Assembly (NCBI GenBank): GCA_030280995.1
Contig: JASXTE010000017.1
Coordinates: 14,994,498 to 15,058,497, forward strand
DNA from: Hemileia vastatrix
Taxonomy: Eukaryota; Basidiomycota; Pucciniomycetes; Pucciniales; Zaghouaniaceae
DNA: 64,000 nucleotides
Direction of reading: 5' to 3'
Made by a program: the position numbers and the translations under genes. Positions 8,455 through 63,591 of this stretch are shown here, in pieces. Each line of letters opens with the position of its first letter. Position 1 is the stretch's first letter. The notes beneath the pieces are model-generated. The model did not search any database, was not told the DNA's origin, and saw nothing but the letters and a program-made list of their open reading frames with translations.

Positions 8455-8744
8455 ATTATCAAGCACACTTTCCAGCACTCCATTCCTGTTTCTTCTTCTT
8501 CTTCCCAAAGTTTACCTTGTGACCCAGTTCCTGACCACTATAACCCAGATACTTTCTCCAGCCTCCTGCACTACAATAAACACAGTTCTTCCTCTAATCC
8601 AAACAAGAAAAAAAAACGCCAACGCCATCCAGACCTGCCGCCAGAGGCTTCTTCATCTTGTAATTAAATAAAATAGTTAAAAAAATTCACTAAATTGAAA
8701 AAAATTATAACAACTAACAGATATATACATATATATTGGTTTAA
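8455..8744. other. Spacer between antisense gene and microsatellite
   Basis: About 290 bp following the stop of the C antisense gene, T/C-rich and then A-rich. No coding signal is convincing. It probably holds the 3' UTR of the antisense transcript. Confidence 0.4.
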
Positions 8745-9980: not shown

Positions 9981-9989
9981 TTTTCTACT

Positions 9990-29600: not shown

Positions 29601-30300
29601 TCCATCATAAAAGTGTCCAGCACACATTCGGCAAAACGTGTGCTGGACACTTTTGGTCACATGCAGTCTGATGTGATCAATTCTCTCTATTGCAATGAAA
29701 ATGAATTTTTCTTCAATAATTGCACTAGAAGTTGTTTGATATGGCAAAATTGTCATCCTGAAGTTTTGGTAAAGCCCAAGTGGATTTTTTTTTATTTTTA
29801 CAAAAAAGAAATTATAGTCCAAGTTTAGTTCCACTGGTGGGCGTTCACCCCATCATTTCTACTTGCTCTTGATGGCAAGAATTTTACTTTAATCTTTTAT
29901 TTCATATTTGATCCCTTTAATTTTACCTTTTTATCCCTCATATTGCTTTTGGATATCAATTTATTTTTTGTAAAACAAATCATTTTCATATTTTTTTACC
30001 TTTATTTAATAATATTATAAAAGGTGTAACATCACCCGGTATGCGTTGGGCACATGAGTTTTTGCTATACTTATAATATTAATAACATAATGGTGACAAA
30101 AAATCAATCAAATGATAAATATGAGTGAGGCACAAAGGTAAAATACTAATTAATCAATAGTTTTTTTTAATATTATAAATTTTTTGATTAAATAAAATGG
30201 TAATAATGTATTATATTTTTCATCCACAATTCCACTCTTATGATTCCCACTGCACAAAAAGGGTTCAATTGGTCCTTTCTTTACTGCTTGTGCATATATT
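20640..30300. repeat. Satellite array, ~605-bp units with a central palindrome (about 13 units)
   Basis: Units recur with a palindrome near 22028, 22630, 23236, 23851, 24766, 25379, 25983, 26597, 27205, 27812, 28424, 29031 and 29609, spacing about 605 bp except 23851 to 24766. Each unit also has TTTGCTATACT, an AATGGTGA(C/A)AAAAA segment and an AAATACCAGT segment. The first kilobase (20640-21600) holds more diverged, ~230-bp-spaced relatives. The closing segment 30145-30300 also occurs at 24390-24535, so the array contains an internal copy of its own end. No coding capacity. Confidence 0.92.
26597..26642. repeat. Representative 46-bp palindrome of the satellite
   Basis: The 20-nt arm AAAAGTGTCCAGCACAAGTT, a 6-nt centre CGGCAG and the exact reverse-complement arm. 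Most other units carry the same palindrome with one to four changes. Confidence 0.95.
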
Positions 30301-41002: not shown

Positions 41003-41773
41003 TGTCACGCGCCACGTGACACTCGAGGCAAAATCAGCTCATTAAATCAATAATATCCAGTCCTAAATCTATACTCGAAGCGCAGAAAGCAACTCTCCAT
41101 AGCAACTGTGATTCCCCTTTGTGTACTTACTATTTAACTGAGCTAGCCTAAACTCTAAATCTAAATTAGTCAATCTCCCAATAGGGTGCCTTAGTCTCCT
41201 TTTCAATAAGCGACGCACAGCGCTAGGTTCAACGTAATAGTACAGTAGTAGTTTTCATTAAAGTTTTGTTAATTAATTAAAAAGGGGTAAATTGAGCATG
41301 GACGGATATTTAGCGAAGAGGGTCTAAGTGTATGTTAGTAATGGTCAATGGTATGGGAATGGTGCGATGAAAGGGAGGTCAATGCGAGGAGGAACAAAGG
41401 ATATAAAAGGGTTGGGTATTTGGTTTGATATTCCTTAGAATTAAATTATAAAACGTATTTACATCAATAGTGGTAATTCTTTAAAGTTAAATCAATGTTA
41501 TTGTATCTTTCTTTTATTTTCTCAAGATTCATTTCTAAATCCTAAATCTTTGATTATTGAGTTTCCAACCCTTTGTGAGATCTTAAGAACTCCTATTACC
41601 TTTGAAACTATTTTATAATTCTTCTCGAACAAACCTTGAACCTGTAGCTCTTACTTCGAGTAACCTTCAAATCACTTCCTCGAATAATTCCTCTGTGCTT
41701 CAAAGAAGTTTCTAAATCTCTCATCTCACTTTCAGGAACATCCTCGACCTTGTGCATAGGTCGTCCGGTGACA
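41003..41773 (+). repeat. 5' LTR of A2 (771 bp)
   Basis: Starts TGTCACGCGCC and ends GGTGACA. About 25 differences from the 3' LTR at 62816-63586 by eye (about 97% identity). A TATA box is at 41402-41408. Confidence 0.95.
41402..41408 (+). promoter_or_regulatory. TATA box in A2 5' LTR
   Basis: TATAAAA within GGATATAAAAGGG. Conserved at the same place in the 3' LTR and in A1. Confidence 0.6.
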
Positions 41774-41845
41774 GTATAATTTAATTCTCTGTAGTTCTCA
41801 TTCTTTGCACTACTACGTCCTTTTAGGTGTTTTTAAAGTTTTAAA

Positions 41846-45846: not shown

Positions 45847-45928
45847 TGTGGTAGCCTAAAGTTTAGTATGGCACCTAAGTACATAAATGGAGTTATTACG
45901 GCGTGCAAGATTGGCGTTATTATTTTTT

Positions 45929-45940
45929 TATATATAAAAG
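45929..45940 (+). promoter_or_regulatory. TATA box in B 5' LTR
   Basis: TATATATAAAAG after a T run; conserved in the 3' LTR and the partial LTR copy. Confidence 0.6.
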
Positions 45941-46310
45941 GGTTTTATTTAATTTATTTGAGTTTTAAATATGAAGAAATTGGTCACGAGAAAATGCCTA
46001 CACAAAACAATTTATTTTACAGAGAAAACTTATTTTTACGGTCTGAAAAATTTATAAGTATCAAGTCGAGTCACTCAAGAACCTTGGGAAATTTTCCCAG
46101 AATTTTTACTATTTTTCTTAGATTTTTAAATGAATTTTAAAGTTTTATAGAAATATTTACGTTTTCAGAAATTACTTAACTTCGATGAATTTTCACGGGG
46201 TAATTAGAGATGCGCAGACTACGAAAATTAGTTTGGTATGTAAAGGGGAAGTAGCTCTATTATGTGCAATTATTCTAGATTTTTTATTATAGTTTTAAGG
46301 TTCTAATTGA

Positions 46311-46352
46311 GTCCGGAAGTCCGGACGGACTCCGTACGGGCTCCGGATTGAC
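46311..46352. promoter_or_regulatory. GC-rich CGG/CCG island in B LTR
   Basis: Within otherwise AT-rich DNA this stretch packs TCCGG, TCCGGA, CGGAC, CCGTACGG and CTCCGG, with GAGTCCG/CGGACTC as inverted arms. The same island is at about 59327-59375 (with an extra CGGACTCCGTA unit) and at 59969-60010. CGG/CCG triplets are the half-sites of Zn2Cys6 regulators. The link to the antisense genes of the element is inference. Confidence 0.45.
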
Positions 46353-46937
46353 TCTGGGAGAGCTCTGGAGGGGAAAACTTAGGCACGTGACTAGGAATAC
46401 TTAAGCGCCTGTCAAACTCGAAATTGAGAGGGGGGACACATCATACAGCTTAATCTTTAACTACCACAGTCTCATTTTTTATTACTCAACAAATTAAATA
46501 AGTTATAATACCCTTATAACATTTATTATTTTTACATAACATTTTAGAAATACAATTCAACAATTTAAATCACACTTCATATAGGGTATCTTTAGAAAGG
46601 TCTTCGTTGCTGGGACTTGATTATTGCTGTCTCATAAAAATTCAAATCATTATAAAAACATAAAGTTCAATCTTTACAGATCTTTCACTGGTACACCTTA
46701 ATTGTTGTTATCAGTATTTCTTTCTCAACAGCCACTTTCATTAAATCTCAATAAGCGTTAAATATTTTAGAGTTTCATTATTTTTATCAATCAGATCCAA
46801 GTAGACTGGGTAGCTTAGTGATTTAGAATTCTCATTTTGTTATTTTATTGGAAGGACGGGGTTTTCAGCTAAATCCACATATCTCCTCCGGATTCTGCTT
46901 ATAGCAAGGCAACTGTAAGAGTTTACCTTACCATAGT

Positions 46938-46954
46938 TGGCGCCCAACGTGGGG
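46938..46954 (+). promoter_or_regulatory. Element B primer-binding site for tRNA-Lys(CUU)
   Basis: TGGCGCCCAACGTGGGG, three bases after the LTR. It is the complement of CCCCACGTTGGGCGCCA, the 3' end of eukaryotic tRNA-Lys(CUU). Confidence 0.9.
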
Positions 46955-47111
46955 TTCAATTTCTCTAGCTTTCTATAAAGACTTACTTGGATCAAGAACA
47001 TTCTTAGCCTGCAAGAGGCTTATTTTCTGGAACTCTAATTGGATTTTTGTTATTGGCCTGCAAGAGGCTTGTTATTTTATCGATTGTTAACGCTTTTCAT
47101 TACTTATTGGG

Positions 47112-49200
47112 ATGTCTTCTTCTGCTGTTGCTTCTGGATCTTCTAACCCTCTTACTCCCTCAGTTAGAATTGTTTCTTGGGATGGCCCAAAGTTTGATGG
47201 GGAGGAGGTTAAATGGTTCATTAGCAGGTATGAAGCTGCTGCTGCTGTTGATGGTGCTTCTCATGTGGATATGGTGAAGCAAGTTAGGTTTTTTATTGCT
47301 GATAGGGAGGTGGAAAAAGAGGTTATTGCTATGCAGGCGTTTAAGGACAAGCATTGGGTTAAGCTTTCTAAAGCTATGGTTGATAGATGGGGTGTTAGGT
47401 TTACTATGATGGACCTCAATAAAATTGTTGGAGACTGGCAAGCAAAAGGTGGAGTTTCTTCTATGGCTGACTTCAAAAAGCTCTGTGTTCAGTTTGATGA
47501 AGTGGTGGAATATCTCATATTGGTGGATGAGTTAGTGCATGAGAACCAAGCAAAAGATTTGTTTTGGACAGCATGCAGCAGGAATATTCGTATGGACGTC
47601 TTGAAGGATCTTTCAAGAAAAGATTTGATGAAGGAACTGCCTAATGGTGAGCAGAAACTGCTGGCTCTGGAGGTTATCAAAGACAACATTCAAGCCCATC
47701 TAAAGTTATTGGTGTTGGACAAATATCAAGAGTCATGCACTCAATATGTTAGCAAGGTTAGCAAAGTTTTGGCCAAAAACAACGATATTATGGTCAAAGC
47801 CCAGGAGGCTAAGAAGGCTCAAATGGGATTACCTGCTGCTAAAGTTGAGGGTAGTGTAGATAACAAGATGGTCGATCATTTGGCCAATTTAACAAAACAA
47901 TTAAAAATATTTGTTCAAGAGACTCAGAAGGCCAATAAGGCCCCAATTGCTTCTTCGTCGACGTCGACTTCTTATCAGTCCAGAGGTTATGAACGTCGAA
48001 ATTATAATGGCAATAATAATGGTAACCACTTCCCAGGCAATGGGAGAAATGGTGGGAATGGTGGTAGTAATTATAGAGGTGGATATGATGAGCCAAAGGT
48101 GTGATCCTATTGTAATAGGAGAGGGCACAGAGCATCAGTTTGTTTTGCTCTTGATAAGGATATGGATGCTGGGCGAGTTTTATTTGATGGTAAAGTTTAT
48201 AAATTTCCTGATGGTTCGTTCATCAAGCCCAGTGATGGACAGTCTCCTTCTGATTTGGTCAGAAGAAGTTTAACAGCTGAAAGGAGAGCCAGGTTTGAAG
48301 AGGTGACGGATGAAGATGTTAATGCCAAGAGTGGCAAAAATGGTAATGGTAATGGTGGTAAAGCTGACAAGGGTAAGGAGAAAGAGGTTAGTAAAGCCAC
48401 ATTTTCTACTTCTTTTGGTGGTTTAGAGCTGGCGACGGTTGCCCAGGTGGAGGGTAGCTGTATGGCTGGCGAATACAATGTTAATGCTGCTAGAAGAGCA
48501 GCTGCTACTAAGGCAAAAAGTAGCATTCAGAGCCAATTGAGGGCTAATCCCGGCAAGGCCAATAACAAAGTGAACCCTTACTCAAAGGACAGGAATTCTA
48601 GTTCTCAAACTGCTTCCAACAAATTGAACCCTTACTCTAAGGACAAATTATATAAAATGCAGAAGGGGATTACTGATATGGGGCCCCCTAGTTATGGCAA
48701 GTTTGATTTAAATGGTGAGCCTATTCCAGAGGATGATTCGGATTCTGAGGAGGACGTACCGTTGGCGTCTCTACCCAGACCAAGTTTTAGCGGTCCCATA
48801 CCAATGGAGGGAGTAAGAAGGACTAGCGATGGATCAGGATTAGTGCAAGAAGCTGGTGACGGAGTTAGGGTTATAGAAAGTGAAGATGTTATTATGGGGG
48901 GTGAAGATGGCTCGGTTGGACCTCAAGAGGTACCCAGGGCCAAGGTTGTTAAATCAAAGGTCCAGTATGAGCGGCCAGTAGTTTCTGGTCAAGCTAATGC
49001 AATGGACGCAGTTTTGAATAGGGTGAATCAACTTCAGATTCCCTTATCTTTGGGGGAGTTATTTACAATTAGTCCGGCGCTTGCTGAAAAGCAAAAGAAG
49101 CATTTGACGAGGCGTCGGGTTTCCACTGGAGAGGTGGAATATATTTGTGAAAATGCTGAAAAATTTGGGGAAGATGTAGATACACATTTTTCCGCTCCCC
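47112..49200 (+). pseudogene. Element B gag (capsid, zinc knuckle, linker), stop at the knuckle
   Basis: The ATG at 47112 (MSSSAVASGSSN) opens a 330-codon frame: a helical capsid-like domain (VDMVKQVRFFIADREVEKEVIAM, VDRWGVRFTMMDLNKIV) followed by an Asn/Gly-rich tail. TGA at 48102-48104 falls exactly on the first Cys of the knuckle (stop-SYCNRRGHRASVC; D has CSYC). The same frame resumes and is open from 48105 through the linker (GGLELATVAQVEGSCMAGEYNV, QKGITDMGPPSYG) into the protease. It could be a programmed UGA readthrough or simple decay; C has Tyr at this Cys, favouring decay. Confidence 0.85.
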
Positions 49201-49721
49201 TGGGTTACCTGGTGGTAACTCTTAACGGTAAAGAAGTAAAGGCCTTGGTTGATTCAGGGTCTCAAATTAATTTAATTTAATTGGAGCAAGCGACGAGTAT
49301 AGGCTTTTCAATTAAAAGTGGAACTGGGGGAAACCTCAGAGGCATTGGAGGGCATGCAACAGAGCTGATGGGCACAGCTGAGCATGTCAGGTTAGGCATT
49401 GGTGGATCTGTTTGTAAGTTTCACTTTTATGTGGCCAGAGGAGCAGTCAGAACTGTTCTTGATGGTCCTTTTATGATGGATTTTGAGGCCAGGATAGGGT
49501 ATCAAGCTGGCATGGGGATTAGTTTGGAGATCACTGGTGAAGATATGCGGAGGTTACATATGCGGTTAGCGCCTCCTGGAGATGAAGGTTGGGAAACACG
49601 GCCAGGGATTACTACTCTGTGCCAGTGTTGTGTATGCACCAAGAAGCGGCATATAAAACGGACGGCTTCTGGTGAATTATGTTTGTTGGAAAGGGATGAA
49701 TGCCCTCATTTTTTGGGGTAG
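49201..49721 (+). pseudogene. Element B retropepsin, stop after the active site
   Basis: Same frame as the linker: ALVDSGSQINLI, then TAA at 49278-49280 (Ser in C), then LEQATSIGFSIKSGTGGNLRGIGGHATEL and TVLDGPFMMDF. DSG is intact. After the domain the frame runs on to 49721 (KKRHIKRTASGEL). Translation from gag would end in the flap region, so no active protease is expected. Confidence 0.88.
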
Positions 49722-49973
49722 AAGGGGCCGATCACTCTAATGTTGTAATCTCTCCTCAGGATGAGATCCCAGATTGCAATAGGTCAGCTCACTTGGAGAT
49801 AATTCAAGTGGATTCTCAATTATTTTCTGTTAATAATACTTTGGAATGCAAATACGTTTTGGACTTTTCTATATGTTTGTTGGATTTACCCTGTTTTTCT
49901 CTTAAATTTAAAAATGGTGAAAATGGCAAAATGGGCCAAATTAGGTTGGATAAAGGTTGGAAGGGTATGTTTT
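49722..49973 (+). other. Element B protease-RT linker
   Basis: About 250 bp, readable in a shifted frame (SPQDEIPDCNRSAHLEIIQVDSQ) that matches the end of the C and D protease-RT spacers (AHLEI/PLEV text). Leads into the repeat array. Confidence 0.5.
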
Positions 49974-50703
49974 ATGACCTCCAGCAAGAGGGTAAACTGC
50001 GAAAATATTATCAAAACCCAATTAAAAATGTCAGTATAATTAAAACACAAAAAATAATTTTTGTGAAAATGTTATTCCGGGCCTCCAGCAAGAGGTTAAA
50101 CTGCAAGTATCTCCTTCTATTATGGACCTCCAGCAAGAGGGTAAACTGCGAAAATCTTATCAAAACTTGATTAAAAATCTCAGTATAATTAAAACACAAA
50201 AAAATAATTTTTGTGAAAATTCATTTCCGGACCTCCAGCAAGAGGTTAAACTGCAAGTATCTCCTTCTATTATGGACCTCCAGCAAGAGGGTAAACTGCA
50301 AAAATCACATCAAAATACAATTAAAAATCTCGGTATAATTAAAACACAAAAAAATAATTTATGTGAAAATGTTATTCCGAGCCTCCAGCAAGAGGTTAAA
50401 CTGCAAGTATCTCCTTCTATTATGGACCTCCAGCAAGAGGGTAAACTGCAAAAATTACATCAAAACTCGATTAAAAATCTCAGTATAAGTAAAACACAAA
50501 AAAAAAATTTATGAGAAAATGTTATTCCGGACCTCCAGCAAGAGGTTAAACTGCAATTATCTCCTTCTATTTTGGACCTCAAGCAAGAGGGTAAGCTGCG
50601 AAAATCTTATCAAAATCCAATAAAAAATCTCAGTATAATTAAAACACAAAAAAATAATTTTTGTGAAAATTCAATTCCAGTCCTCCAGCAAGAGGTTAAA
50701 CTG
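49974..50703 (+). repeat. In-frame 150-bp tandem repeat (5 units) in B pol, ten hairpin modules
   Basis: Units start at 49974, 50122, 50272, 50422 and 50572, exactly 150 bp apart except the first (148). Each encodes 50 residues with two LQQE(G/V)KL peptides, and each peptide is encoded by CCTC-CAGCAA-GAGG-(G/T)TAAACTG. The frame is open for most of the array (one TGA at 50512). It separates protease from RT, as the differently spaced arrays do in C and D. The 2-bp change in unit one shifts the frame relative to the protease. Confidence 0.9.
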
Positions 50704-52788
50704 CCAACTTTCTTTACGGGTGATTTACTGTTGGATAAGGGAAGCAAAGGTGTTGGAAAATCTGTTTATAAATTAGACGAGGGAAAGGAGAAAAGGGTAA
50801 AATTTAAAAATGAAATAAAATATTTTTCTAATTTTTCTTATTCCGATTCTGGCGATGAAGAAGATTCATTTGATGAAAGTTTTAATGGCGATAAAGAAGA
50901 AAATGTTTTACCTCAAGTTTATTTAGATGTGGACGCAGCCAAATATAAGAAAGTAGCAAATAAAGTTCGACCTATTAATGAACCGCTACCTGCAAAATTA
51001 AATCCACCTTTGAGAAGACCAAGGTTATCAAGAGATCCTTATGAAAGTCCCTTGGTAAAGAATCTGCCTGAATTTTCTGAGACGTCAAGAATCACTTTTG
51101 AGAGACTGGGTGTTGTTAATTTTGGACCTGATGGTTGGTTGTCTGGAGAAGAGAAGAAGTTGTTGTTGGATGTGATGGTCAAGCGAGAGAAGGCCATTGC
51201 TTTTGTAGAAGAGGAGAGGGGTGTGTTGAAGCATTCCTATGGGGAGCCTTACAAGATTCCTGTGGTATGTCATGAACCATGGCAGCAGAAACCAATTCCT
51301 ATTCCGGCTGCATTAAAAGAAGCCTATATTGAAGTTGTCAGAGAATGGATACGCACTGGACTGTATGAGCAATCAACATCAAGTTATTCTAGTCCGGTAT
51401 TTTGTATCAAGAAACCGAATGGCAAGCTTAGAGTTGTTCATGATCTTAGGGAATTAAATAGGGTTACAATAAAGGATGCTGGGATACCGCCTAGTGCTGA
51501 GGAGTTTGTTGAAGCGTTTTCAGGGAGAGTGTGTTATGGTTTGGGAGATATTATGGGTGGATATGATGAGAGAGAGTTACATCCGGACTCAAGGCCTCTC
51601 GCTACATTTGATACACCACTTGGACGTTTACAGTTAACAAGATTACCTCAAGGAGCAACAAATTCGGTTGCAGTTTATCAAGCTCAGATGGCTTGGATCC
51701 TTCAAGACAAAATTCCACAATTGGTTGGAATCTTTATAGATGATGGAGGAATTAAGGGACCAACAACCGACTATGATAACCAGGTGTTGGAAGAAAATCC
51801 CGGGATACGCAAATTCATTTGGGAGTTTGCAATTACATTAGAAAGAATCTTGTTTCGAATTGAAGAGGCTGGTTTAACTATTTCAGGTTCAAAATTTTCA
51901 TGTTGTGTGCCAGCCTTAGAAATATTAGGCCATGTGGTATGTAGAGAGGGTAGGATTATGTCCAAGAAGAAAGTTAACAAAATTCAGTCGTGGCCAAGAC
52001 CCAAGAATACAACCGAAGTTAGAGGGTTTTTAGGCGTTTGCGTATATGTTAGAATGTTTATCAAGGACTTTTCTTCATTGGCAGCTCCATTGAGAGGGTT
52101 AACGAGAAAGGATGCAGAATGGGAGTGGGATGAAGAGTGTGAGAAGGCGTTTGTGAAGTTGAAGGAGGTTGTGGGGAAGGATTTAGTCCTGCACAAGTTG
52201 GATTATGGAAAAGATGCTGGCAGAATTTATTTAGCAGTTGATTCAAGTCAGGTTGCAGCTGGGGCGGTTTTGTCTCAGATGGATAAAGCTGGTTACATCA
52301 GGCCAGTTAGGTATGAATCTGTAGTATTTACTGAGGTCGAATCAAGATATTCTCAACCAAAATTGGAATTATGTGGTGTGGCAAAAATACTGAAGAAACT
52401 TCAGCATATTTTGTGGGGGCAACATTTTGAGTTGCAAGTAGATGCGAAATCGTTAATCCAGATGATTAATTCCCCAAGTTTAGCGAACGCACCCATGACG
52501 AGATGGGTAGCTTTTATTCAACATTTTTCATTTGATTTAGTTAATAAGCCTGGCAAGACTTTTACTATGCCAGATGGTTTATCAAGGAGACCAACCACTG
52601 AAGAAGATTCAGACTCAGAAGAGTTCGATGAAGATATACCTATTATCAAAGCCAGCACTAAAGGAGCTGAAGACTTTCCATACCTCCCCCATGAGGTTAA
52701 ACTGGCAGGACTATTGTGTTTAGATTATGATGATGATGACCTCCACCAAGAGGATAAACTGGAAAATAGTTTTTATCACTACACAATA
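50704..52788 (+). pseudogene. Element B reverse transcriptase - RNase H (open, inside broken pol)
   Basis: Open from 50572 to 52791 without interruption. An acidic linker (SDSGDEEDSFDES) leads to RT: VCHEPWQQKPIPIP, GLYEQSTSSYSSPVFCIKKPNGKLRVVHDLRELNRV, LATFDTPLGRLQLTRLPQGATNS, catalytic FIDD at 51733-51744, EEAGLTISGSKFSCCVP, LGHVVCREGRI. RNase H: YLAVDSSQVAAGAVL, RYSQPKLELCGV, QVDAKSL. It ends in a linker with two more modules (LPHEVKL, LHQEDKL). The stop at 52789 is created by the MITE insertion. RT and RNase H look catalytically complete. Confidence 0.92.
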
Positions 52789-52790
52789 TA

Positions 52791-53013
52791 GGGGGTGGAC
52801 TTGCTAGCAAGTCCTCAACCTGAACTCAGATGGAACTCAGACTGAACTCATACTGAACTCATGCTGAACTCTACTTGGACACCCACCTAAAACTGTTCTG
52901 CTGAGTGGTGTTCATCCCTGATTGTATGGTTCCTTTATCAATAGCTCAATGTGTGCTCAATCTGTGGTGAGTTTGGGTCCAAGGTTGCGGACTCGCTAGC
53001 AAGTCCGCCCCCC
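52791..53013. mobile_element. 223-bp MITE inserted in B pol
   Basis: Ends GGGGGTGGACTTGCTAGC and the inverted GCTAGCAAGTCCGCCCCCC, flanked by ATA at 52788-52790 and 53014-53016. Each end contains the palindrome GGACT(T/C)GCTAGCAAGTCC. Internally CTGAACTCA is repeated several times (52810-52870). No coding capacity. The end motif matches that of the 20053-35167 region. Confidence 0.85.
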
Positions 53014-53016
53014 ATA

Positions 53017-54673
53017 TTGCGTGGTGTATGTTAATAAAGGTGTTGGAAAAGGTGTAGATAAATTCGGTAGAAAGGAGGTAGAAGAAGATGTGGTGTATGT
53101 AGAGTAAGATGGATTGGTAGTGTGGGATAGTAGTAAATTAAGGAATGGTGTATATTTTGGAGAATTAGAGAATTTAAATAAAAGGGTGGATAAAGAGAAA
53201 GAGGTATTTTCAAATACGGTTCACAAAGGATCCAAAGGTTCGGAAGAAAAACGTTGACATAGCTCAATTAAAGATTTATTTAGGGGTCAACAATTATTGG
53301 CTCATTCATGTGCAGGTGATATTGGTGATAGAGAAGTCCCTATTGATGTTATATTAATCAATTTTCAAGATGAAGTCTGGGGTCAGACTGGTTTTTATTT
53401 TTTGTTAGTCAAATATTTGTTGACTTTAGAGAGGCCAGAAGATTGTGAAGACAATCAATGGGTGGCTATCAAGAGGAAGTCATCTACGTTTTACCTATCT
53501 GGTCGACGTTTAATGAGGAGGAGGTATCCAAATCCTCAAGTAGTTATAACTCAAGAGAAGGGGCAAGAATTAGTTTTGAAATCACTGCACGAAGATCTCG
53601 GGCATAGAGGCATTGGAGAAACGTTTAGAAGAATTTCTGATCGATTTTGGTGGCCTGGCATGAAGATGGCTGTTAAACAGTGGGTTTAGTCATGGAAAGA
53701 ATGTCAAAGACGAAGTTATTTAAGGCCAAAAGAACCTGGACGCGCAACCAGTGAATATACGCTCTTTGGGAGAGTTAGTTTAGATGCCGTTCATATAAAA
53801 GAGGGACGGTATAAATATTTAATTGTGGCCAGAGATGATTTATCTGGTTGGGTAGAGGCAGCGCCTCTAATTAATTTAACTGCGAAAAATGTGGCAGAAT
53901 TTTTTTTGAATAATTGGGTATATAGGTATGGGGTGATGAAGTTGGTAACGGTAGATGGAGGTCCTGAATTTGGGACAGAGTTTAATAAGGCCGTATTGAA
54001 AGTTGGATCAAAGGTTAGGGTAGCAACCCCATATTATCCTGAAGCTGAAGGCATGGTTAAAAGAGGGCATCAAGTTATTAAGGATGCTTTAGTTAAAATG
54101 TGTGGGACAAGTGCCGAAAAGTGGAGGCACTATTTACCTTTAGTTTTATTTGCTGATCGAATCGCTGCCAAAAGGACGACCGGATTTTCACCTTATGAAC
54201 TTGTTTTTGGACAGAAAGCAGTTTTACCGGTTGATTTAGAAGCTGAATCATATCTTGGAGTTGACTGGGACACGGTCAAAACTACTGAAGAATTATTGTG
54301 TACAAGAATGATGCAGCTAGAAAAGAAAGAAGAATATTTAGAAAAGGCATATTTGCGGATGATGAAGATCCAAAATCAATCAGTCAGATATTGGGATGAG
54401 CGGTTGGGACATCGATTAAGGAAACCTTTAAACCCAGGTGATATGGTCCTGGTGTATAATAGGAGTTTGGAAAGTCAGTGGGGAAAGATGTTTGCAGATA
54501 GGTGGAATGGAGCATATAAAATCAAGGAGCAAGTTTCCGGCGGTTCATATGTGCTAGAAGAGTTGGATGGAGTAGTATTGAAGAAGAGGGTAGCAGCCAA
54601 TCAAGTGAAACGGTTCTATCCTAGAGGCACCAGGAGTGCCGAAGTATTCCTCCGCAATGAGGATAAACTATGA
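53017..54673 (+). pseudogene. Element B integrase, catalytic Glu and one zinc Cys lost
   Basis: The block 53297-53689 has LHEDLGHRG (zinc His pair) and ends at a TAG (53687) where C has Gln. The same frame then reads SWKECQ, where C has SCEECQ, so the first zinc Cys is Trp. The block 53825-54673 follows: DAVHI and VDGGPEF carry the Asps, but EGMVKRGHQ has Lys in place of the catalytic Glu of C (EGMVERGHQ). The C-terminus runs to KRFYPRGTRSAEV and a module-encoded LRNEDKL. Inactive on three counts. Confidence 0.9.
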
Positions 54674-54770
54674 TATCGACAAAATTATATGGATACCTCC
54701 GCAACGAGGATAAACTATGATATCTACAAAATTTTATGGATTCCTCCGCAATGAGGATAAACTATCTTCT
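54648..54770 (+). repeat. Three ~47-bp hairpin units across the end of B pol
   Basis: CCTC-CGCAA(T/C)-GAGG-ATAAACTATGATATC(G/T)ACAAAAT-type units at about 54651, 54698 and 54744. The first encodes the last residues of pol (LRNEDKL-stop); the others lie in noncoding sequence, so the motif is kept outside the reading frame too. Confidence 0.85.
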
Positions 54771-55430
54771 TTTTTATCAAAATACTTTACTGTCATTACA
54801 CTGCATATGGGCGACAAAACTTTGATGAAACATAATGAAATGCGAGAAAACCTTCATTGAAAATTTTCAAAACTTAAAATTCTTAAAATATGGGTGAAGA
54901 TAGTGTTGGAAAAATTTTAAAATTTATTGGAAGAAGTGTTCACAGGGGAACCTTCTTAATTAAATATTGGCAAGTGTGGGGGTAATTGATGGGCTGGCTG
55001 CTCTATACACAATTACCCCATAATGTTCGTTTCCAAAATTTTCCCTGTTTCTAGTTGAATCCTGGCTTTGTCTTTTAATTATAGGAAGTCCACTAAGACT
55101 ATAAACTGGAATGAATCAAGAGACACCACTCTCAACTCCGGATTCAAGATTCTTTTTTTTTATTTTGTTTTTGATTTTTTTTATGTTAGATTGTGATTTC
55201 TTTTCTTTAATATATATTATGAATTATTGTAAAGGTGATGCTCACTGGTGGTCTCTAATCATTTTTATAAATTGGAGGGAGCCCACCCAGTGATCATCAT
55301 TATAAAATTTATCTTCTAAAAACTTTCATTTAATTTCTTTTCTTTTCAATTTCTCAAAATTGTGTAACCACATCAAGTTGCACTTGGATGTGGGTATGAT
55401 GTTGAGGGTACAGCTCATCAAATGGCCGGG
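54771..55430 (+). other. Element B 3' noncoding region with conserved hairpins
   Basis: Matches C 10080-11000 in the opposite orientation. It contains AATTGATGGGCTGGCTGCTC (54985), an inverted pair CACTGGTGGTCTC (about 55242) and GAGCCCACCCAGTG (about 55278), and CCACATCAAGTTGCACTTGGATGTGG-like arms (55370-55396, 10-bp arms). No gene. Confidence 0.6.
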
Positions 55431-55706
55431 GGGAATCTTTTAAAAAAAAAATTTATTTTTTTAAAAAAATATTTTTTATTACTTTTTTTTATTTTCTTTT
55501 CACATTCGTTTATCTTTCTTTAAAAAATTAAATTTTAACTTTTATTTCAAAACTATTTTTTTTTTTTTAAAAGAAAAAAAAATCTTTTATTTTAAATGGT
55601 AAAAAAAATAAATAAATAAATAAATAAATAAAAATAATAAAATAAAATAAATAATTAATTAATAAAATAACTAAAAATATATAAAAAAAATAATAAAAAA
55701 AAAATA

Positions 55707-55737
<31 letters not shown>

Positions 55738-55800
55738 AATAAAAAAATAAAAATAAAAAAAATAAAAAAAAATAAATAAAAAAAATAAATAAATAAAAGG
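55431..55800. repeat. A/T simple-sequence tract in B
   Basis: T-rich and then AAAT/AAATA repeats, almost free of G and C. It occupies the position of the 1.2-kb hexanucleotide tract in C, directly 3' of an antisense gene. Confidence 0.9.
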
Positions 55801-55884
55801 TATTTTAGTTTTAGGTAGTTTAGATGTTTATATTATTATTTTTCAAACATTATTCAAGAAAGCTACATACCAGGAAGAACACCA

Positions 55885-56897
55885 TTAAGGGTTGTTATCT
55901 TTTGAAGAATCGAAATTAGAAAATTTAGAAGGACCTTGATCGATTTCCTGGGATTCAAATCTTATTTCACGGTCACGATAGTGTTGAAGCCAGTTGGCTA
56001 TTTTGAAAAGGTCTCTTAACAGTTGCTCTCTCATCCAAGATTCTGATCTATCAGAGGGCGGGTATCGTTAGAAATAAGCAATAAGGTTATTAAAATTAGC
56101 AAAAAGCTTTTCAGACACTAGGTGAATTGGAACTCTAGGGAAGCTTGGATTAGGTTCTGGTAGTTCATAAGCTGAATATGAAATTGGAGAACCGGTGGAC
56201 GCTTATCAAATTAAAATATCAGCAACTTAAAACCTGAATATTAAGAAATAAAAAGAGACAACTAACCTGTGTCAACACTATCATGATCATAGATAAACGG
56301 TTTACTTGGTAATGGAGTGGGATTTTTTATGTTTAGGAAAGGATTTTTTATTTTTGATAGATGAGGAGGACTGGTGTTGGATTTGGTGTTTGAAGTAGAT
56401 GTTCTGGACCTTTTGGATGAAACAAGAGAAGATGAAGACTGCTGGCTATTATAGGACCTTTTGTGCTTCAAGATGTTGGAAGAAGGAGAAGAATTGTTAG
56501 AAGGTTGAAGCATGGCCCTGGGAGCAGCAAGAGTTCTTGGGGGAGTAGCAGCAAGTCTAGATTGGAGAGAAGGACCCAGAGGATTAGGTGATGGAGAAAG
56601 ATTTAAATAGGCTGATGGAGAAAAAGGTATGGGATCTTTAGAGGTTGATGGAATAGGGGGTGGAGTAGAAGGTGAAGAAGAAGGAGGAGGATTGCAGAAG
56701 GCGGCGAAGCTAGTAGCAGTGATGGGGAAAGAACCACAGTTCAAGCCAGAACATTTTCTTTTCTTCTCATAACAGGATAAACAGGCCCTGTTATAAGTGT
56801 GCTTTTGCCAGTTGAAAGTGAAGATACATTCCCTATGGGTGAAAGCACAATATTTGCAAGATTGATCAGTTGAAGCGATGAAGTCATAAGGTTTCAT
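55885..56897 (-). pseudogene. Antisense gene 1 of B: Zn2Cys6-like protein, one stop
   Basis: The ATG is at 56897. Exon 1 (56897-56267, 210 codons plus one base): six Cys at residues 14, 17, 24, 39, 42 and 49 (CKYCAFTHREC, CLSCYEKKRKC), spacing 2-6-14-2-6, then a long Pro/Ser-rich region and a basic patch (SSKRSRTSTSN). Intron 56266-56202 (GTTAGT...GATAAG, branch-like CTGAT), then exon 2 (56201-55885) in phase. The frame has one TAA at 56070-56068, between NNLIAYF and RYPPSDRSESWMREQLLRDLF, giving 254 residues instead of 315. The exon 2 domain matches the end of the C antisense gene and resembles that of gene 2. Role inferred: nuclear DNA-binding protein. Confidence 0.7.
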
Positions 56898-56991
56898 CTT
56901 GTTAGGAGATATTTTTTTGAAGAAGAAAACTTGAAACTAGGATGAAGAAAGCTGGTGGCAAAATCTAAGTTCAAGGATAGAGAAGTTGATA
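56898..56991. other. Immediate upstream region of antisense gene 1
   Basis: About 95 bp between the gene start and the hairpin array. It would include the 5' UTR and core promoter on the minus strand. No clear TATA. Confidence 0.35.
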
Positions 56992-57461
56992 GGTCCACCA
57001 AGACCTTAAACTGGACTGTTATCAAGCTGTTGGGTCCACCATGACCTTAAACTGGATTTCTTATCAATTAAATGTTTGGTCCACCATGACTTTAAACTGG
57101 TAGTTCATTCATTGTTTAGTCCACTATGACTTTAAACTGGAAAATTAATATCTGCAGGATAATTCAACATTCATTGGACCACTATGGCCTTATACTGGAT
57201 TACTTGTCAATCAAATGTTTGGTCCACTATGACATTAAACTGGATTATCAAATTTATTCAATCTTTGGTCAAGCCTAGGCCTTATTTATGAATTTGTCAA
57301 GTTTTTTATGCACCTAAACGATCTTTGGTCCACCAAGACCAATAAACTGGAAATCGATTATATGTTTGGTCCACCAAGACTTTAAACTGGAATGTCAATC
57401 TTGTTTGGATAACTCAATTCAATCTTTTAATTTATCACTGTCCACTAAGACTCTAAACTAG
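56992..57461. repeat. Ten-copy hairpin-motif array upstream of antisense gene 1
   Basis: A core of 4-nt arm, 6-nt loop CAC(C/T)A(A/T), complementary arm, then TTAAACTGG, at 56992, 57033, 57078, 57118, 57176, 57221, about 57267 (degenerate), 57327, 57368 and 57439. The arms are GGTC/GACC, GGTC/GACT or AGTC/GACT, so a G-C pair passes through G-T to A-T. Loop and tail match the CCTC/GAGG modules in pol. Noncoding, with variable spacers of 18-45 bp. Confidence 0.85.
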
Positions 57462-58048
57462 TTATTCAATTATTTCTGGAATCAGGTGCTGATAAGCTTT
57501 AGGAGGTTAAAATTTTAGGTGGTGATGATGCTAAGGAAAGCATAATGGTTAATTAGGTGAAATTTGTGGCGCTTTAACATGGTCTAAAGTTAATATTTTT
57601 ATTGGAAGCCTGGCAAAAGTATTTTATGGGTTTGCTGTATAGCAAAGTTTGAAAATTGTGATGAAGGAATCAGAAGTTAGGATGGTAGTTGGATTTTAGG
57701 GAATGATTTTTTTAGTGCCTCATTGTTAGGCCATTTTTTGTGTGAAGCTTGTAGGACCTTATGGCGAGATTGGAATCATAGAATTCGGCTCAGTGGGGGG
57801 CCCTATGAGGTTGGAATCAGGAGTATTCGGCTCATAGGAAGATCCACTCTCTCAATGCTGTGACAAGAAGGAAGACTGGTATATGGGAGTCTGAAGGGAT
57901 TCAAACCTTGCTCTCAGTAGTGGAATCATCACAAGATTTATATTATTTTATTTTATGTTATATCAAGCCAGAGAAGAAGAAAAAACGTTTTTATTATAAA
58001 GAATTAAAAGAAGACCAAGCAAAAACAAAATTTTATCAAGTTATACTG
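57462..58048. other. Spacer between the two antisense genes of B
   Basis: About 590 bp. Contains a direct repeat: TTGGAATCA(T/G)(A/G)GA(A/G)T(A/-)TTCGGCTCA-like text at about 57767 and 57811. Short open frames (57860-58105) have no homologue or motif I recognise. It would include the 3' UTR of gene 2. Confidence 0.4.
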
Positions 58049-58739
58049 TTAGAAAAGATAATTTCTTTGAAATTGTTCAACATCATTATCAAAGCTTTGC
58101 ATTAAAATTCTTCTTTTCATGAGGTCTTCATGATTATTAGCTGGAGTTTCTTGAAAATAGGCCAGCATTTTTTGTTTCAACTCATTAGTAAAGTCAAGAA
58201 AAAGATAGCGATGAAAATTTTGATAATGATTGATATAGTCCGTCTTCACTCTACCAACATCATCAGTGTTGGTTATTTTGACAGCTAGAAGTTCAAATAT
58301 GTTATTAAGTCATAGGTTTAGTAAATTTTGATTAAAAGTTTTTTAGTAAGATAAATAGGGTCTTACATTTAGAGCCAGGAAACATAGTCTCAGCAAAGTT
58401 AGTTGGGGGTACTGGCGTTATAGGATTAGGATCTTGTGAAGGCAAAATTAGGCCGGGATCTGTTGATGAAGATTGAACTTTTGAAGCTGTTTTTGATCTT
58501 ATTTGTTTTAAGAAGACAGGAATTTTGGATCGCCCTTTAGAAGTTGAGGGATCAGGGAGAGCTGCTGGTCCTAAATATACGTTTGTTTTAGAAGGAACTA
58601 ATGGCCGGTTACATTTGACTTTTTTCACATGGCATAAGTTGCAAGCTGTCCTGCTAGAAAGATTAGGGTTGGACATTAAACAAGGTACCTGGTATCGAGC
58701 GCAGAGTTCACATGGAGCGACAAGAACTTTGGAAGACAT
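58049..58739 (-). CDS. Antisense gene 2 of B: Zn2Cys6-like protein, apparently intact (2 exons, 202 aa)
   Basis: The ATG is at 58739. Exon 1 (58739-58367) begins with six Cys at residues 10, 13, 20, 33, 36 and 43 (CELCARYQVPC, CNLCHVKKVKC), spacing 2-6-12-2-6, within the Zn2Cys6 rule. The basic segment follows the second CxxC, whereas Gal4-type proteins have it in the first half. A Ser/Pro-rich linker with basic spots (KQIRSKTASK) follows. Intron 58366-58285 (GTAAGA...TTCTAG, 82 bp), then exon 2 (58284-58049) reads in phase to TAA with LFLDFTNELKQKMLAYF and MKRRILMQSF, a helical domain resembling that of gene 1. The gene starts 123 bp from the LTR, so its promoter is probably in the LTR. Function inferred only. 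Confidence 0.68.
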
Positions 58740-58786
58740 ATTGATGAAGATGAATTTTATAGTTGATTAAAGAAGATGGTGGTTGA

Positions 58787-60074
58787 AGGTTAAAGATGAA
58801 TATTGTGTTCGACCACTTATGCAAAGTTTTAAGAATAGGGACATTCTCAATTGGAGGGAGGATGTGGTAGCCTAAAGTTTAGTATGGCACCTAAGTACGT
58901 AAATGGAGTTATTACGGCATGCAAGATTGGCGTTATTATTTTTTTATATATAAAAGGGTTTTATTTAATTTATTTGAGTTTTAAATATGAAGAAATTGGT
59001 CACGAGCGAATGCCTACACAAAAACAATTTATTTTACAGAGAAAACTTAATTTTACGGTCTGAAAAATTTATAAGTATCAAGTAGAGTCACTCAAGAACC
59101 TTGGGAAATTTTCCCAGAATTTTCACTATTTTTCTTAGATTTTTAAATAAATTTTAAAGTTTTATAGAAATATTTACGTTTTCAGAAATTACTTAACTTC
59201 AATGAATTTTCACGGGGTAATTAGAGCTGCGCAGACTACGAAAATTAGTTTGGTATGTAAAGGGGAAGTAGCTCTATTATGTGCAATTTTTCTAGATTTT
59301 TTATTATAGTTTTAAGGTTCTAATTGAGTCCGGAAGTCCGGACGGACTCCGTACGGACTCCGTACGGGCTCCGGATTGACTCTGGGAGAGCTCTGGAGGG
59401 GAAAACTTAGGCACGTGACTAGGAATACTTAGGTTAAAGATGAATATTGTGTTCGACCACTTATGCAAAGTTTTAAGAATAGGGACATTCTCAATTGGAG
59501 GGAGGATGTGGTAGCCTAAAGTTTAGTATGGCACCTAAGTACGTAAATGGAGTTATTACGGCATGCAAGATTGGCGTTATTATTTTTTTATATATAAAAG
59601 GGTTTTATTTAATTTATTTGAGTTTTAAATATGAAGAAATTGGTCACGAGCGAATGCCTACACAAAAACAATTTATTTTACAGAGAAAACTTAATTTTAT
59701 AGTCTGAAAAATTTATAAGTATCAAGTCGAGTCACTCAAGAACCTTGGGAAATTTTCCCAGAATTTTTACTATTTTTCTTAGATTTTTAAATGAATTTTA
59801 AAGTTTTATAGAAATATTTACGTTTTCAGAAATTACTTAACTTCGATGAATTTTCACGGGGTAATTAGAGATGCGCAGACTACGAAAATTGGTTTGGTAT
59901 GTAAAGGGGAAGTAGCTCTATTATGTGCAATTATTCTAGATTTTTTATTATAGTTTTAAGGTTCTAATTGAGTCCGGAAGTCCGGACGGACTCCATACGG
60001 GCTCCGGATTGACTCTGGGAGAGCTCTGGAGGGGAAAACTTAGGCACGTGACTAGGAATACTTAAGCGCCTGTC
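58787..60074 (+). repeat. 644-bp tandem duplication across the B internal end and 3' LTR
   Basis: AGGTTAAAGATGAATATTG starts at 58787 and again at 59431, exactly 644 bp apart. Each copy contains 76 bp of internal sequence with the polypurine tract and the first 568 bp of LTR. The first copy ends abruptly at 59430 where the second begins. The left copy is therefore a partial LTR (58863-59430) inside the element. Confidence 0.93.
59497..59506 (+). promoter_or_regulatory. Polypurine tract of B
   Basis: GGAGGGAGGA directly before the 3' LTR start TGTGG, the normal place for plus-strand priming. A duplicate lies at 58853-58862. Confidence 0.85.
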
Positions 60075-60596
60075 AAAATCGAAATTGAGAGCGGGGACAC
60101 ATCATACAGCTTAATCTTTAACTACCACTGTCTCATTTTTTATTACTCAACAAATTAAATAAGTTATAATACCCTTATAACATTTATTATTTTTACATAA
60201 CATTTTAGAAATACAATTCAACAATTTAAATCACACTTCATATAGGGTATCTTTAGAAAGGTCTTTGTTGCTGGGACTTGATTATTGCTGTCTCATAAAA
60301 ATTCAAATCATTATAAAAACATAAAATTCAATCTTTACAGATCTTTCACTGGTACACCTTAATTGTTGTTATCAGTATTTCTTTCTCAACAGCCACTTTC
60401 ATTAAATCTCAATAAGCGTTAAATATTTTAAGAGTTTCATTGATTTTATCAATCAGATCCAAGTAGACTGGGTAGCTTAGTGATTTAGAATTCTCATTTT
60501 GTTATTTTATTGGAAGGACGGGGTTTTCAGCTAAATCCACATATCTCCTCCAGATTCTGCTTATAGCAAGGCGACTGGAAGAGTTTACCTTACCAT
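59507..60596 (+). repeat. 3' LTR of B (1090 bp)
   Basis: Full-length match to 45847-46934 with about 18 differences including small indels, followed by the ACCGG duplication and the A2 chromodomain. Confidence 0.95.
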
Positions 60597-60805
60597 ACCG
60601 GTCGAAGTAGAAGATCATCTAGAGTGGGAAGTAAGTCGTATCCTTGATTCAAGAATACGCAAGGGGAAACTTCAATACCTCGTGGAATGGGAAGGCTTCC
60701 TTAATGACTCAGACAAAACATCCTGGGAACCAGCCATCAATGTTTCTAACCCCCCTGAACTCCTAAAATCTTTTCATTTGAAATATCCTTTAAAACCAAA
60801 ACCTT
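60597..60805 (+). pseudogene. A2 chromodomain (resumes after B)
   Basis: PVEVEDHLEWEVSRILDSR, LQYLVEWEGF and TSWEPAINVSN, ending KPKP-stop at 60805. Colinear with the A1 chromodomain at 1644-1940. Intact in itself but cut from the rest of pol by 14.75 kb of B. Confidence 0.92.
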
Positions 60806-61756
60806 AAAATTTCTTTTATTTAAATTTTCTTTTCTTTTTCTTTCTTTCTTTTTCTCTTAAAAATCTAAAACACCTCTTGAATTTCTTAGCCTTGTTTTCT
60901 TTTTTTTCTCCTCTTCTTTTTTTCTTTCTTCTCCTTCTATAAAATTTCCTCCAAAACCAACTAAAAATAAAATCAAAATTAAAATAAAATAAAATAAAAT
61001 AAATAGAATAAATATAAATAATAAAATAAAATAAAATAAATAAAATAAACATAAATAATAAAATAAAATAAAAAACTCTTAAATCTCTCTAAATATTTTC
61101 TTTCTTTTCTTTTTCAATTCTCTAAATACATTATTTTCTTAAATTTAAAATTCACTTTGAAAATTTCTTTCCTAAAATTTATTCTCACTTTAAAACTTTC
61201 TTTCCTTCGAATCATCAAACCTTGTACGACACGACCATTTCCTCGAACTTAACTTCAACCTCTAAAATCTACCTATAAAAATTCTTCGAACAAATGATTC
61301 ATCTTTTCAAATTCTCTTTAAATTCTAAATTATGTGTTTCTGTTTTTTTCTTCTTTCTTCTTCCTCTCTTTTCAACAAAAAATTCCTAAAAAAAAAAATC
61401 AATCAACAACTTTTTTCAAATAACAAATTCTTCTTTTATTAAATTCTCAATTTAACAAACTCATCTCAATCACCAACCGTTTCTTTTTCTCTCTCTTTTC
61501 TTACATAAATTTTTTCTTTTAAAACCTTAAAACTTCCTTCAATTAAACAACTTTTTTTCTTTCTTTATTTACATTTCTTCTTTCAAATTCTAAAAGCAAA
61601 ATTTTATTTAAAACTTCTTTTTTTTCTTTTTCTTTCTCTTCCAAATCTTATAAAATTAATAATATTCACCTACAGTAAAAAAAATAAAATAAAATAAAAT
61701 AAAATAAAACTAAAATACAATTCTACTTTTCTACTTCTTTACATCTCCTTTTCATT
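60806..61756 (+). other. A2 pyrimidine-rich spacer between pol and antisense gene
   Basis: About 950 bp of C/T-rich and A-rich simple sequence, with AAAATA/AAATA runs at about 60980-61070 and 61680-61710. No gene. It would include the 3' UTR of the antisense transcript. Confidence 0.5.
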
Positions 61757-62708
61757 TCAAAGTTTTTCTTTTAATTTTTCTCGAACCAATCTTTTCATTT
61801 TCTCCAAAAATACCCTTATCTCCTTCCTGCATTTCTCAAATACCTCCTCCTCTCCTACAGGAACCACCTCTCCAATCTCCAAGAGTTTCTCTGCCACGTT
61901 GAAGGAAGAAGCGTAGATAATTGTGTCGACCTCCCCACACAACTCTTCTGAGAAACTTACTCGTCGACCTTGACGAGGTTTCTTTGACCACACCTGGTCC
62001 AGTGTGTCTTCAGGTTCTTCGACTACACCCATGGCCAGAGGGTTTTCCTCAGTTGGTAAAAGCGGCGCAGGCTCCCCAATCAGGTCTTCAAGGGTATTCG
62101 ATATCTAAACAAAACTCATCAGTAACCTCATCCTTAAAAAATAACAATTGAAAACTTACCTTGAAGATGGGGTCAGGCTCTAAGAATAACCTTGGCGCCA
62201 CCTCTACCTCTGCTTCTCTTTCCTCCTCGTCGTTTTCAATGACCACCCGTCGTTTCTTGGGTGCCCGCCCTGGAACAGGGACTTCATCTTCATCTTCCTC
62301 TACCAATTCGTCGAACTCTTCCTCAACACCCCGCTTCGAACTCGTGGCCTGGGTTACCCAGGTTGTGATCTCGTTATTGAGCTCCATATCATTCTCCCCC
62401 ACCAATTGTTCATCTTCAACTGAGACATCCCAAATGTCTTCAACCACCTCTTTTGTTTTAGGGATTACCCAAAACTTGGTCTTGGTAAACCGTTGTTCGA
62501 TCTTTGCGTTCTTCGTCAACGCATCGCACGCCACTCGTCGCTAATGGCAAAACTTGAATTTCTGGCGAGGGCCTTGAGTCGCCGTACTTTCGACACAAAT
62601 GTATTCCATGCTTTCACAAGCCGTGCAAGTTTGTGAAAATTGTCGCGTAATCATTCCCCCATCCGCTTTAGGGTGTGGAGGCGTAGGTGTGGGAGTAGGG
62701 CAGTTCAT
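61757..62708 (-). pseudogene. Antisense gene of A2: Zn2Cys6-like acidic protein, one stop
   Basis: The ATG is at 62708. Exon 1 (62708-62160, 183 codons): Pro-rich start, then ligand positions C28, C31, C38, F51, C54 and C61, the same 2-6-12-2-6 spacing as B gene 2 with Phe (TTC) at the fourth Cys. TAG at codon 56 (62543-62541) lies between C54 and C61. An acidic region (EEEFDELVEEDEDE) and a nuclear-signal-like PKKRRV at residues 150-155 follow. Intron 62159-62105 (GTAAGT...TTTAG, 55 bp) joins in phase to exon 2 (62104-61757, 115 residues) ending in a charged helix (RKEIRVFLEKMKRLVREKLKEKL). The start is 108 bp from the 3' LTR. Not recognised as any named gene. Confidence 0.62.
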
Positions 62709-62815: not shown

Positions 62816-63586
62816 TGTCATGCGCCACGTGACACTCGAAGCAAAAGTAGCTCATTAAATCAATAATATCGAGTCCTAAATCTATACTCGAAGCGCAGAA
62901 AGCAATTCTCCATAGCAACTGTGATTCCCCTTTGTGTACTTACTATTTAACTGCGCTAGCCTAAACTCTAAATCTAAATTAGTCAATCTCCCATTAGGGT
63001 GCCTTAGTCTCCTTTTCAATAAGCGACGCACAGCGCTAGGATCAACGTAATAGTACAGTAGTAGTTTTCATTAAAGTTTTGTTAATTAATTAAAAAGGGG
63101 TAAATTGAGCATGGACGGATATTTAGCGAAGAGGGTCTAAGTGTATGTTAGTAATGGTCAATGGTATGGGAATGGTGTGATGAAAGGGAGGTCAATGCGA
63201 GGAGGAAGAAAGGATATAAAAGGGTTGGGTGTTTGGTTCGATATTCCTTAGAATTAAATTATAAAACGTATTTACATTAATAGTGGTAAATCTTTAAAGT
63301 TAAATCATTGTTATTGTATCTTTCTTTTATTTTCTCAAGATTCATTTCTAATTCCTAAATCTTTGATTATTGAGTTTCCAACCCTTTGTGAGATCTTAAG
63401 AATTCCTATTACCTTTGAAACTATTTTATAATTCTTCTCGAACAAACCTTGAACCTGTAGCTCTTACTTCGATTAACCTTTGAATCACTTCCTCAAATCA
63501 TCCCTCTGTGCTTCGAAGAAGTTTCTAAATCTCTCATCTCACTTTCAGGAACATCCTCGACCTTGTGCATAGGTCGTCCGGTGACA
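62816..63586 (+). repeat. 3' LTR of A2 (771 bp)
   Basis: Starts TGTCATGCGCC and ends GGTGACA, the same length as the 5' LTR. Followed by GAAGA (63587-63591) and element D. Confidence 0.95.
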
Positions 63587-63591
63587 GAAGA

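Follow-up and report, generated by a model that had tools for sequence, protein, structure and literature searches.

What is an intact gene for a zinc-cluster-like protein, with a predicted intron, doing on the antisense strand of a partly decayed retrotransposon? The question is raised by a 64,000-nucleotide stretch of the Hemileia vastatrix assembly GCA_030280995.1 (contig JASXTE010000017.1, positions 14,994,498 to 15,058,497 of the forward strand), hereafter the window. Here, a Ty3/Gypsy element that we call B, approximately 14.7 kb long (about 45848–60597) and bounded by long terminal repeats (LTRs) of approximately 1.09 kb that are 98% identical, carries two antisense genes for proteins of this type, Zn1 and Zn2, in the slot between pol and its 3′ LTR. 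On balance, and with modest confidence, we favour the reading that the B family possesses two antisense zinc-cluster-like genes under purifying selection, each predicted to be spliced once, whose proteins likely bind the CGG/CCG cluster of the element's own LTR and regulate element transcription. This reading builds on the position of the genes, their frames and exon lengths, a selection signal, swapped half-domains and the LTR cluster, all observed in one genome, a scope that limits it.

The first-pass annotation had described an antisense frame of two exons with in-phase splice sites, no stop and six cysteines spaced 2-6-12-2-6, and exactly this frame, encoding 202 residues, is found at 58739–58049 of the minus strand:

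58367–58739, minus strand: Zn1 exon 1 (ATG, six-Cys domain, linker), 373 nt, the same length in 41/41 sequences
58285–58366, minus strand: predicted Zn1 intron, 82 nt, GT-AG (GTAAGA...CTAG), phase 1
58049–58284, minus strand: Zn1 exon 2 (C-terminal region, stop ending at 58049), 236 nt, the same length in 41/41 sequences

The LTRs of B and a partial copy that complicates their 3′ side are as follows:

45848–46935, plus strand: 5′ LTR of B
59507–60597, plus strand: 3′ LTR of B
58787–59430, plus strand: tandem duplicate of the 76 bp preceding the LTR and the first 568 bp of the LTR, a partial LTR ahead of the true 3′ LTR

The antisense placement of Zn1 between pol and the 3′ LTR thus stands, with the correction that the LTR piece adjoining it is the tandem duplicate, the true 3′ LTR starting at 59507. 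In element B, the Zn1 ATG lies 123 nt from the true 3′ LTR edge, and this gap measures 122, 123 or 125 nt in 42 of 48 fetched loci, namely those in which both marks could be located. A six-frame scan of the window recovered two full six-Cys motifs, that of Zn1 and that of Zn2 (56858–56751), both antisense and both in the pol–3′ LTR slot. That such a frame is a chance product or an artefact is hardly credible: although an ATG frame of at least 135 aa, taken alone, appeared in 6 of 1000 shuffles of the slot, one of 211 aa appeared in 0 of 1000, the six-Cys motif was recovered in 0 of 2000 dinucleotide shuffles, and the frame is retained in many genomic copies.

A single antisense gene had been noted in the slot, a count that has to be raised, since B carries two and a damaged one is present in the chromovirus E that surrounds it. 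The second gene of B is laid out as follows:

56267–56897, minus strand: Zn2 exon 1, six-Cys, 631 nt (210 codons plus one base), with at least 252 scored matches in the genome
56202–56266, minus strand: predicted Zn2 intron, 65 nt, phase 1
55885–56201, minus strand: Zn2 exon 2, with one in-frame stop in the window copy

Its cysteines form two C-x2-C-x6-C halves like those of Zn1, but joined by a 14-residue loop, and the two proteins resemble each other at both ends, with only 1 and 10 of 2000 shuffles scoring as well. Within this same copy of B, Zn2 contains a stop whereas Zn1 is open. The joined Zn2 frame is nevertheless open in 9/10 genomic copies (8 of the 10 chosen by Zn2 protein match), and in the aligned sequences the predicted intron starts with GT in 7/8 and ends with AG in 8/8. 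Lengths of 65–69 nt are predicted for this intron.

Many copies at the same antisense position had been proposed as a test of the gene, and they were found, with the ATG at the near-constant distance from the LTR edge given above. A search of the 748-Mb genome returned at least 293 matches to Zn1 (150 of 13454 first-look candidates scored, exons counted separately), and the search with Zn2 the at least 252 already mentioned (126 of 10019 candidates scored). For Zn1, we assembled 41 sequences, comprising 40 loci picked by exon-1 protein match and the window copy; L001–L007 (which share a 79-nt deletion), L008 (a duplicate of L017) and L009–L016 (Zn2 loci) were omitted. In this set, the exons measure 373 and 236 nt in 41/41 sequences, the joined frame is open in 38/41, and the intron keeps its GT-AG ends in 41/41 while varying among six lengths from 81 to 96 nt. 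No gap run interrupts either exon; the intron has 6 and the two flanks together 9. Pairwise differences average 0.0136 for exon 1, 0.0089 for exon 2, 0.0124 for the intron, and 0.0196 and 0.0357 for the flanks. Because the LTRs of B are 98% identical and the frame is retained in many genomic copies, Zn1 is not peculiar to a single decayed copy.

The seven omitted copies L001–L007 had seemed to lack the intron, and we rejected them as proof of splicing: a single shared 79-nt deletion leaves 20 nt of intron and removes 17 nt of exon 2. Their matches to the 202 residues are ungapped, one of them beginning at residue 4, and the copies form a subfamily that stays in frame; 5/7 matches are free of stops, and of these five, one no longer has the start region and another lacks a cysteine.

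A second set was chosen by the non-coding DNA beside Zn1. Of 2191 candidates 40 were scored, and as these include the window itself, 39 other copies remain. Zn1 is present in 11 of these 39 copies, with exact exon lengths and GT-AG ends in each, 8 frames being open and 3 interrupted by stops; two of the 11 loci, L032 and L052, also belong to the set of 41.

Together with the window copy, these 11 flank-chosen copies yielded 50 nonsynonymous (N) and 25 synonymous (S) changes and 3 stops, where a synonymous share of 0.206 would be expected (P=0.012). The corresponding ratio of nonsynonymous to synonymous polymorphism (pN/pS) is 0.52 (bootstrap 0.31–0.79), and in the replicating lineage it may be lower, because changes that arose after insertion are counted in. 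These values replace our first estimate (N/S versus expectation of 0.33 in exon 1, P 6.6e-5, and of 0.43 in exon 2, P 0.046), which picking by protein match biases. Zn2 exon 1 is spanned by 7 of the 20 five-kb Zn1 loci, and in these together with the window copy its pN/pS is 0.23 (0.11–0.42; 7 sequences) when one frameshifted copy is dropped and 0.50 (0.34–0.73; 8 sequences) when it is kept. The dN/dS check that the first-pass annotation had called for is thus answered favourably by these ratios, a signal that both genes are under purifying selection, though, as discussed below, not by every comparison. The same figures bear on the idea that the antisense RNA itself acts, through double-stranded RNA or interference with sense transcription, the frame being incidental. 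Antisense transcripts of retroelements can act as RNA, according to two sources (PMC7264820, PMC10186651), but an incidental frame should yield neither pN/pS values of 0.2–0.5 nor exact exon lengths, and we regard this explanation as very unlikely.

The description of Zn1 as Zn2Cys6-like holds with a qualification. For the Pfam family Zn_clus (PF00172) the protein scores 21.9 bits, close to the cut-off of 21, but the similarity derives from its second half alone, and its halves are swapped relative to solved zinc clusters. When half-domains were searched separately, the second halves of Zn1 and Zn2 matched the start of the profile (positions 1–15) with 22.7 and 16.9 bits, while the first halves of both, and the corresponding piece of the E protein, gave no Zn_clus match as pieces. 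Among the solved clusters compared (PPR1 1pyi, GAL4 1d66, LAC9 1cld and LEU3 2er8), residues 28–46 of Zn1 align to the first half of PPR1 (2–20) and residues 9–26 to its second half (23–40), with an E-value of 0.0011; GAL4, LAC9 and LEU3 show the same swapped order weakly (E-values 1.9–3.6), so that it recurs in 4/5 listed chains, the fifth being unrelated. Both Zn1 and Zn2 contain the two C-x2-C-x6-C halves joined by a loop that are typical of PF00172, and the E protein keeps five of the six cysteines. In that family the basic half (KxKC) comes first; in Zn1 the order is reversed, and in Zn2 the second half alone matches, at profile positions 1–15.

Zn1 therefore shares with PF00172 regulators the six cysteines in two halves and a basic KKxKC half, but differs from them in the swapped order of the halves, in being element-borne and antisense, and in that no known middle or activation domain was found in it with Pfam. 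Judged by strict domain order, it falls outside the canonical family; it looks like a circularly permuted Zn2Cys6 cluster. The match of its second half only suggests that Zn2 is permuted likewise. Searched alone against solved structures, this second half of Zn2 gave one weak match, labelled cystathionine beta-synthase (E-value 1.4). The plant antisense domain TRP28 (PF04195) was not among the listed Pfam matches of Zn1 or Zn2 exon 1 at E-values up to 10, in a search whose HMMER filters drop most weak matches.

Zinc clusters read CGG triplets, and in GAL4 and PPR1 the KK of the basic half contacts CGG. In the window, whose mean is 0.46 CGG/CCG triplets per 100 bp, the three densest stretches of such triplets coincide with the three copies of the B LTR, which is 32% G+C:

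46313–46346, no strand assigned: CGG/CCG cluster in the 5′ LTR, 9 triplets in 100 bp
59330–59374, no strand assigned: CGG/CCG cluster in the duplicated LTR part, 11 triplets in 100 bp
59974–60007, no strand assigned: CGG/CCG cluster in the 3′ LTR, 8 triplets in 100 bp

Dinucleotide shuffles equalled this degree of clustering in 0, 0 and 1 of 1000 cases. In the 48 Zn1 loci that include an LTR (47 places), the 100 bp richest in these triplets falls in the LTR and holds 5–20 of them; of the 28 flank-chosen stretches without Zn1, 27 have at least 6 triplets, and the remaining one matches the first 415 bases of the LTR alone, ahead of the cluster.

The protein might instead be made but be an accessory nucleic-acid-binding protein, acting in packaging, integration targeting or silencing suppression, in which the zinc cluster would be a generic grip on RNA or DNA. 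We consider this improbable: the KKxKC half of Zn1 aligns with the first half of PPR1 and, weakly, with that of GAL4, and the LTR holds the triplet cluster, even if the lack of a recognised activation domain would suit an accessory role, as would the nuclear location of some plant proteins from this slot, the role of which is given as unknown in PMC7264820.

A comparable arrangement recurs in E, which has LTRs at 41003–41774 and 62816–63587 (97% identical) and is a chromovirus, because a chromodomain follows its integrase; its reverse transcriptase (RT) is 28% identical to that of B. Near their start, the E LTRs carry the sequence CACGTG. In E's own pol–3′ LTR slot, an antisense frame (62708–61757) begins with an ATG 107 nt from the LTR, compared with 123 nt for Zn1. 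The relevant features, including those of element A, a relative of B, are:

60595–60807, plus strand: chromodomain downstream of the E integrase, 49.9 bits
62160–62708, minus strand: exon 1 of the E antisense gene, five of six Cys at Zn1 spacing, one in-frame stop (62543–62541)
62105–62159, minus strand: predicted intron of the E antisense gene, 55 nt, phase 0
61757–62104, minus strand: exon 2 of the E antisense gene, open
7498–8454, plus strand: putative antisense gene in element A, itself on the minus strand, read as a decayed zinc domain, an S/T/P/N-rich linker, a predicted intron at 8179–8251 and a C-terminal exon at 8252–8454

The Cys region of the E frame aligns with that of Zn1 without a gap (score 53, with 0 of 2000 shuffles as good). 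In element A, the C-terminal exon is nearer to Zn2 (1 of 2000 shuffles as good) than to Zn1 (131 of 2000), and we read the frame as a decayed relative of the antisense genes. Predicted introns are in phase 1 in Zn1 and Zn2, were joined as phase 1 in A, and are in phase 0 in E.

Several observations weigh against the reading that we favour. Zn1 is absent from 28 of the 39 flank-chosen copies (L064, L066–L079, L081–L093), in all 28 of which the sequence preceding the gene runs directly into a stretch resembling the exon 2 end, for which loss of some 700 bp by deletion is the simplest explanation; Zn1 is, therefore, not needed in cis. Among the 41 sequences, N/S is 13/11 for shared variants versus 28/22, plus 3 stops, for single ones (Fisher P=0.81), although selection on the replicating lineage should lower the ratio for shared variants; on this comparison, the dN/dS check does not favour selection. 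The intron is no more divergent than exon 1 (0.0124 and 0.0136, respectively). On the protein side, Zn2 exon 1 reaches only 9.5 bits with Zn_clus, Zn2 has no zinc-cluster match among solved structures, and neither Zn1 (E-values up to 1) nor the E protein (up to 10) found a relative in the protein database. The Cys region of E does not match that of Zn2 (875 of 2000 shuffles as good), nor does its C-terminal region match those of the other antisense proteins (207 to 569 of 2000). As for the proposed target, total CGG/CCG numbers per LTR are ordinary (15 and 12 versus mononucleotide shuffle means of approximately 9 and maxima of 19 and 21), a CG-rich LTR cluster could serve other factors, and the E LTRs contain no such cluster (at most 2 triplets per 100 bp), so that the E protein, if it binds the E LTR, needs a different site.

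Part of this evidence fits the view that Zn1 and Zn2 are passengers, that is, captured host zinc-cluster genes copied along without doing anything for the element: Zn1 is missing from the 28 copies, stops interrupt it in 3/41 and 3/11 copies, and N/S is alike for shared and single variants. Passenger status would, however, leave unexplained the pN/pS values of 0.52 and 0.23, the frame-exact exons beside an intron of variable length, the presence of two such genes in one element, and the similar Cys region that chromovirus E has in the corresponding slot. We thus consider it unlikely, while granting it more weight than the accessory role.

Antisense genes in the slot between pol and the 3′ LTR are already known from plant Gypsy elements, where they are termed aORF-3R and include gene23 of Grande and those of RIRE2 and Retand; some of their proteins are nuclear and Retand TRP28 is predicted to bind DNA, their role being unknown, according to PMC7264820 and PMC11963269. 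B shares with the plant elements the slot, the antisense orientation, the many copies and a long pol–3′ LTR region with tandem repeats, but differs from them in its likely fungal host, in a protein that is zinc-cluster-like rather than TRP28, in a predicted intron per gene and in carrying two genes per element. A further difference is the clustering, in the LTR of B, of the triplet recognised by zinc-cluster proteins. The HBZ gene of HTLV-1 is likewise antisense, expressed from the 3′ LTR, spliced in one form and transcription-factor-like, and lowers sense expression, according to PMC10186651. Zn1 and Zn2 share with it the antisense position beside the 3′ LTR and a regulator-like product, their own expression and regulatory role being predicted; HBZ differs in being a bZIP protein of a retrovirus, and we claim homology neither to it nor to the plant genes. 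A survey of titles and abstracts, whose scope excluded most subscription journals, showed neither an antisense zinc-cluster gene in a Gypsy element of a fungus nor a Zn2Cys6 domain in permuted form.

How would such genes work? From the observed features, we infer transcription, splicing, zinc and DNA binding, the target and the sign of the effect. In the regulatory reading, a promoter on the antisense strand, within or close to the 3′ LTR, would give rise to a transcript with one intron, the product would be a small protein with a zinc cluster at its N-terminus, and this protein would act on the CGG/CCG cluster of the LTR, in cis or on other copies. Copies without Zn1 might then persist through supply in trans, redundancy with Zn2 or escape from a repressor. 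Because Zn1-less copies have multiplied, our guess is that repression, serving self-limitation or latency, is likelier than activation. If this holds, the mode of action could resemble that of the plant aORF-3R proteins and HBZ.

A broader picture is possible, and we offer it more tentatively. Gypsy elements of rusts, in two deeply split clades, may carry their own antisense zinc-cluster switch genes next to the 3′ LTR, with a circularly permuted domain in one or more of them; the switch of B would read an LTR CGG array, the size of which varies between copies, and subfamilies without Zn1 would lie under or outside the control of the copies that make it.

Element B itself is assigned to Ty3/Gypsy on its paired LTRs and on the presence of RVT_1, RT_RNaseH and Integrase_H2C2 in that order, and its coding regions, located with Pfam and the list of open reading frames (ORFs), are:

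47112–49721, plus strand: gag (by position) and protease, three ORFs
50572–52791, plus strand: RT and RNase H, one open frame (739 codons)
53297–54673, plus strand: integrase, split over two ORFs, with Integrase_H2C2 in the first

The labels given to gag and to the second integrase ORF follow from where they lie, since no Pfam family exceeds its cut-off there, and the protease match lies below its cut-off. The decay of the sense genes beside an intact Zn1, on which the first-pass annotation had remarked, is seen in gag/protease and integrase, each split into several ORFs, the RT–RNase H region being a single ORF. Tandem 150-bp repeats, partly open in frame, lie between the protease and RT (49899–50798). 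The best named relatives of B pol come from Puccinia striiformis (71%) and Austropuccinia psidii (64%), which points to a rust fungus as the likely host, and a search of viral contigs with B pol gave no match. P0036, a protein filed under the name Sphingobacteriaceae bacterium MAG, shares 71% identity with B pol across 55% of the latter, suggesting that the MAG is contaminated with fungal sequence.

B has a short direct repeat (CCGG) at its ends and is the innermost of three nested elements (41003–63587), being inserted in chromovirus E, which in turn lies inside a Gypsy element, C. Elsewhere in the window are a tandem satellite array (21700–30200) with a period of approximately 607 bp and, in element A, a long microsatellite (8600–10030) of 6- and 12-bp units that gives rise to spurious repetitive ORFs on both strands.

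If the regulatory reading is true, self-regulation of a retrotransposon would become directly testable, in what is likely a fungal case that combines a protein of recognisable DNA-binding type, selection measurable on well over a hundred copies and an LTR with a cluster of the matching triplet. It would also add a permuted form to a very common fungal DNA-binding domain, and would provide one route by which zinc-cluster genes could spread in fungal genomes.
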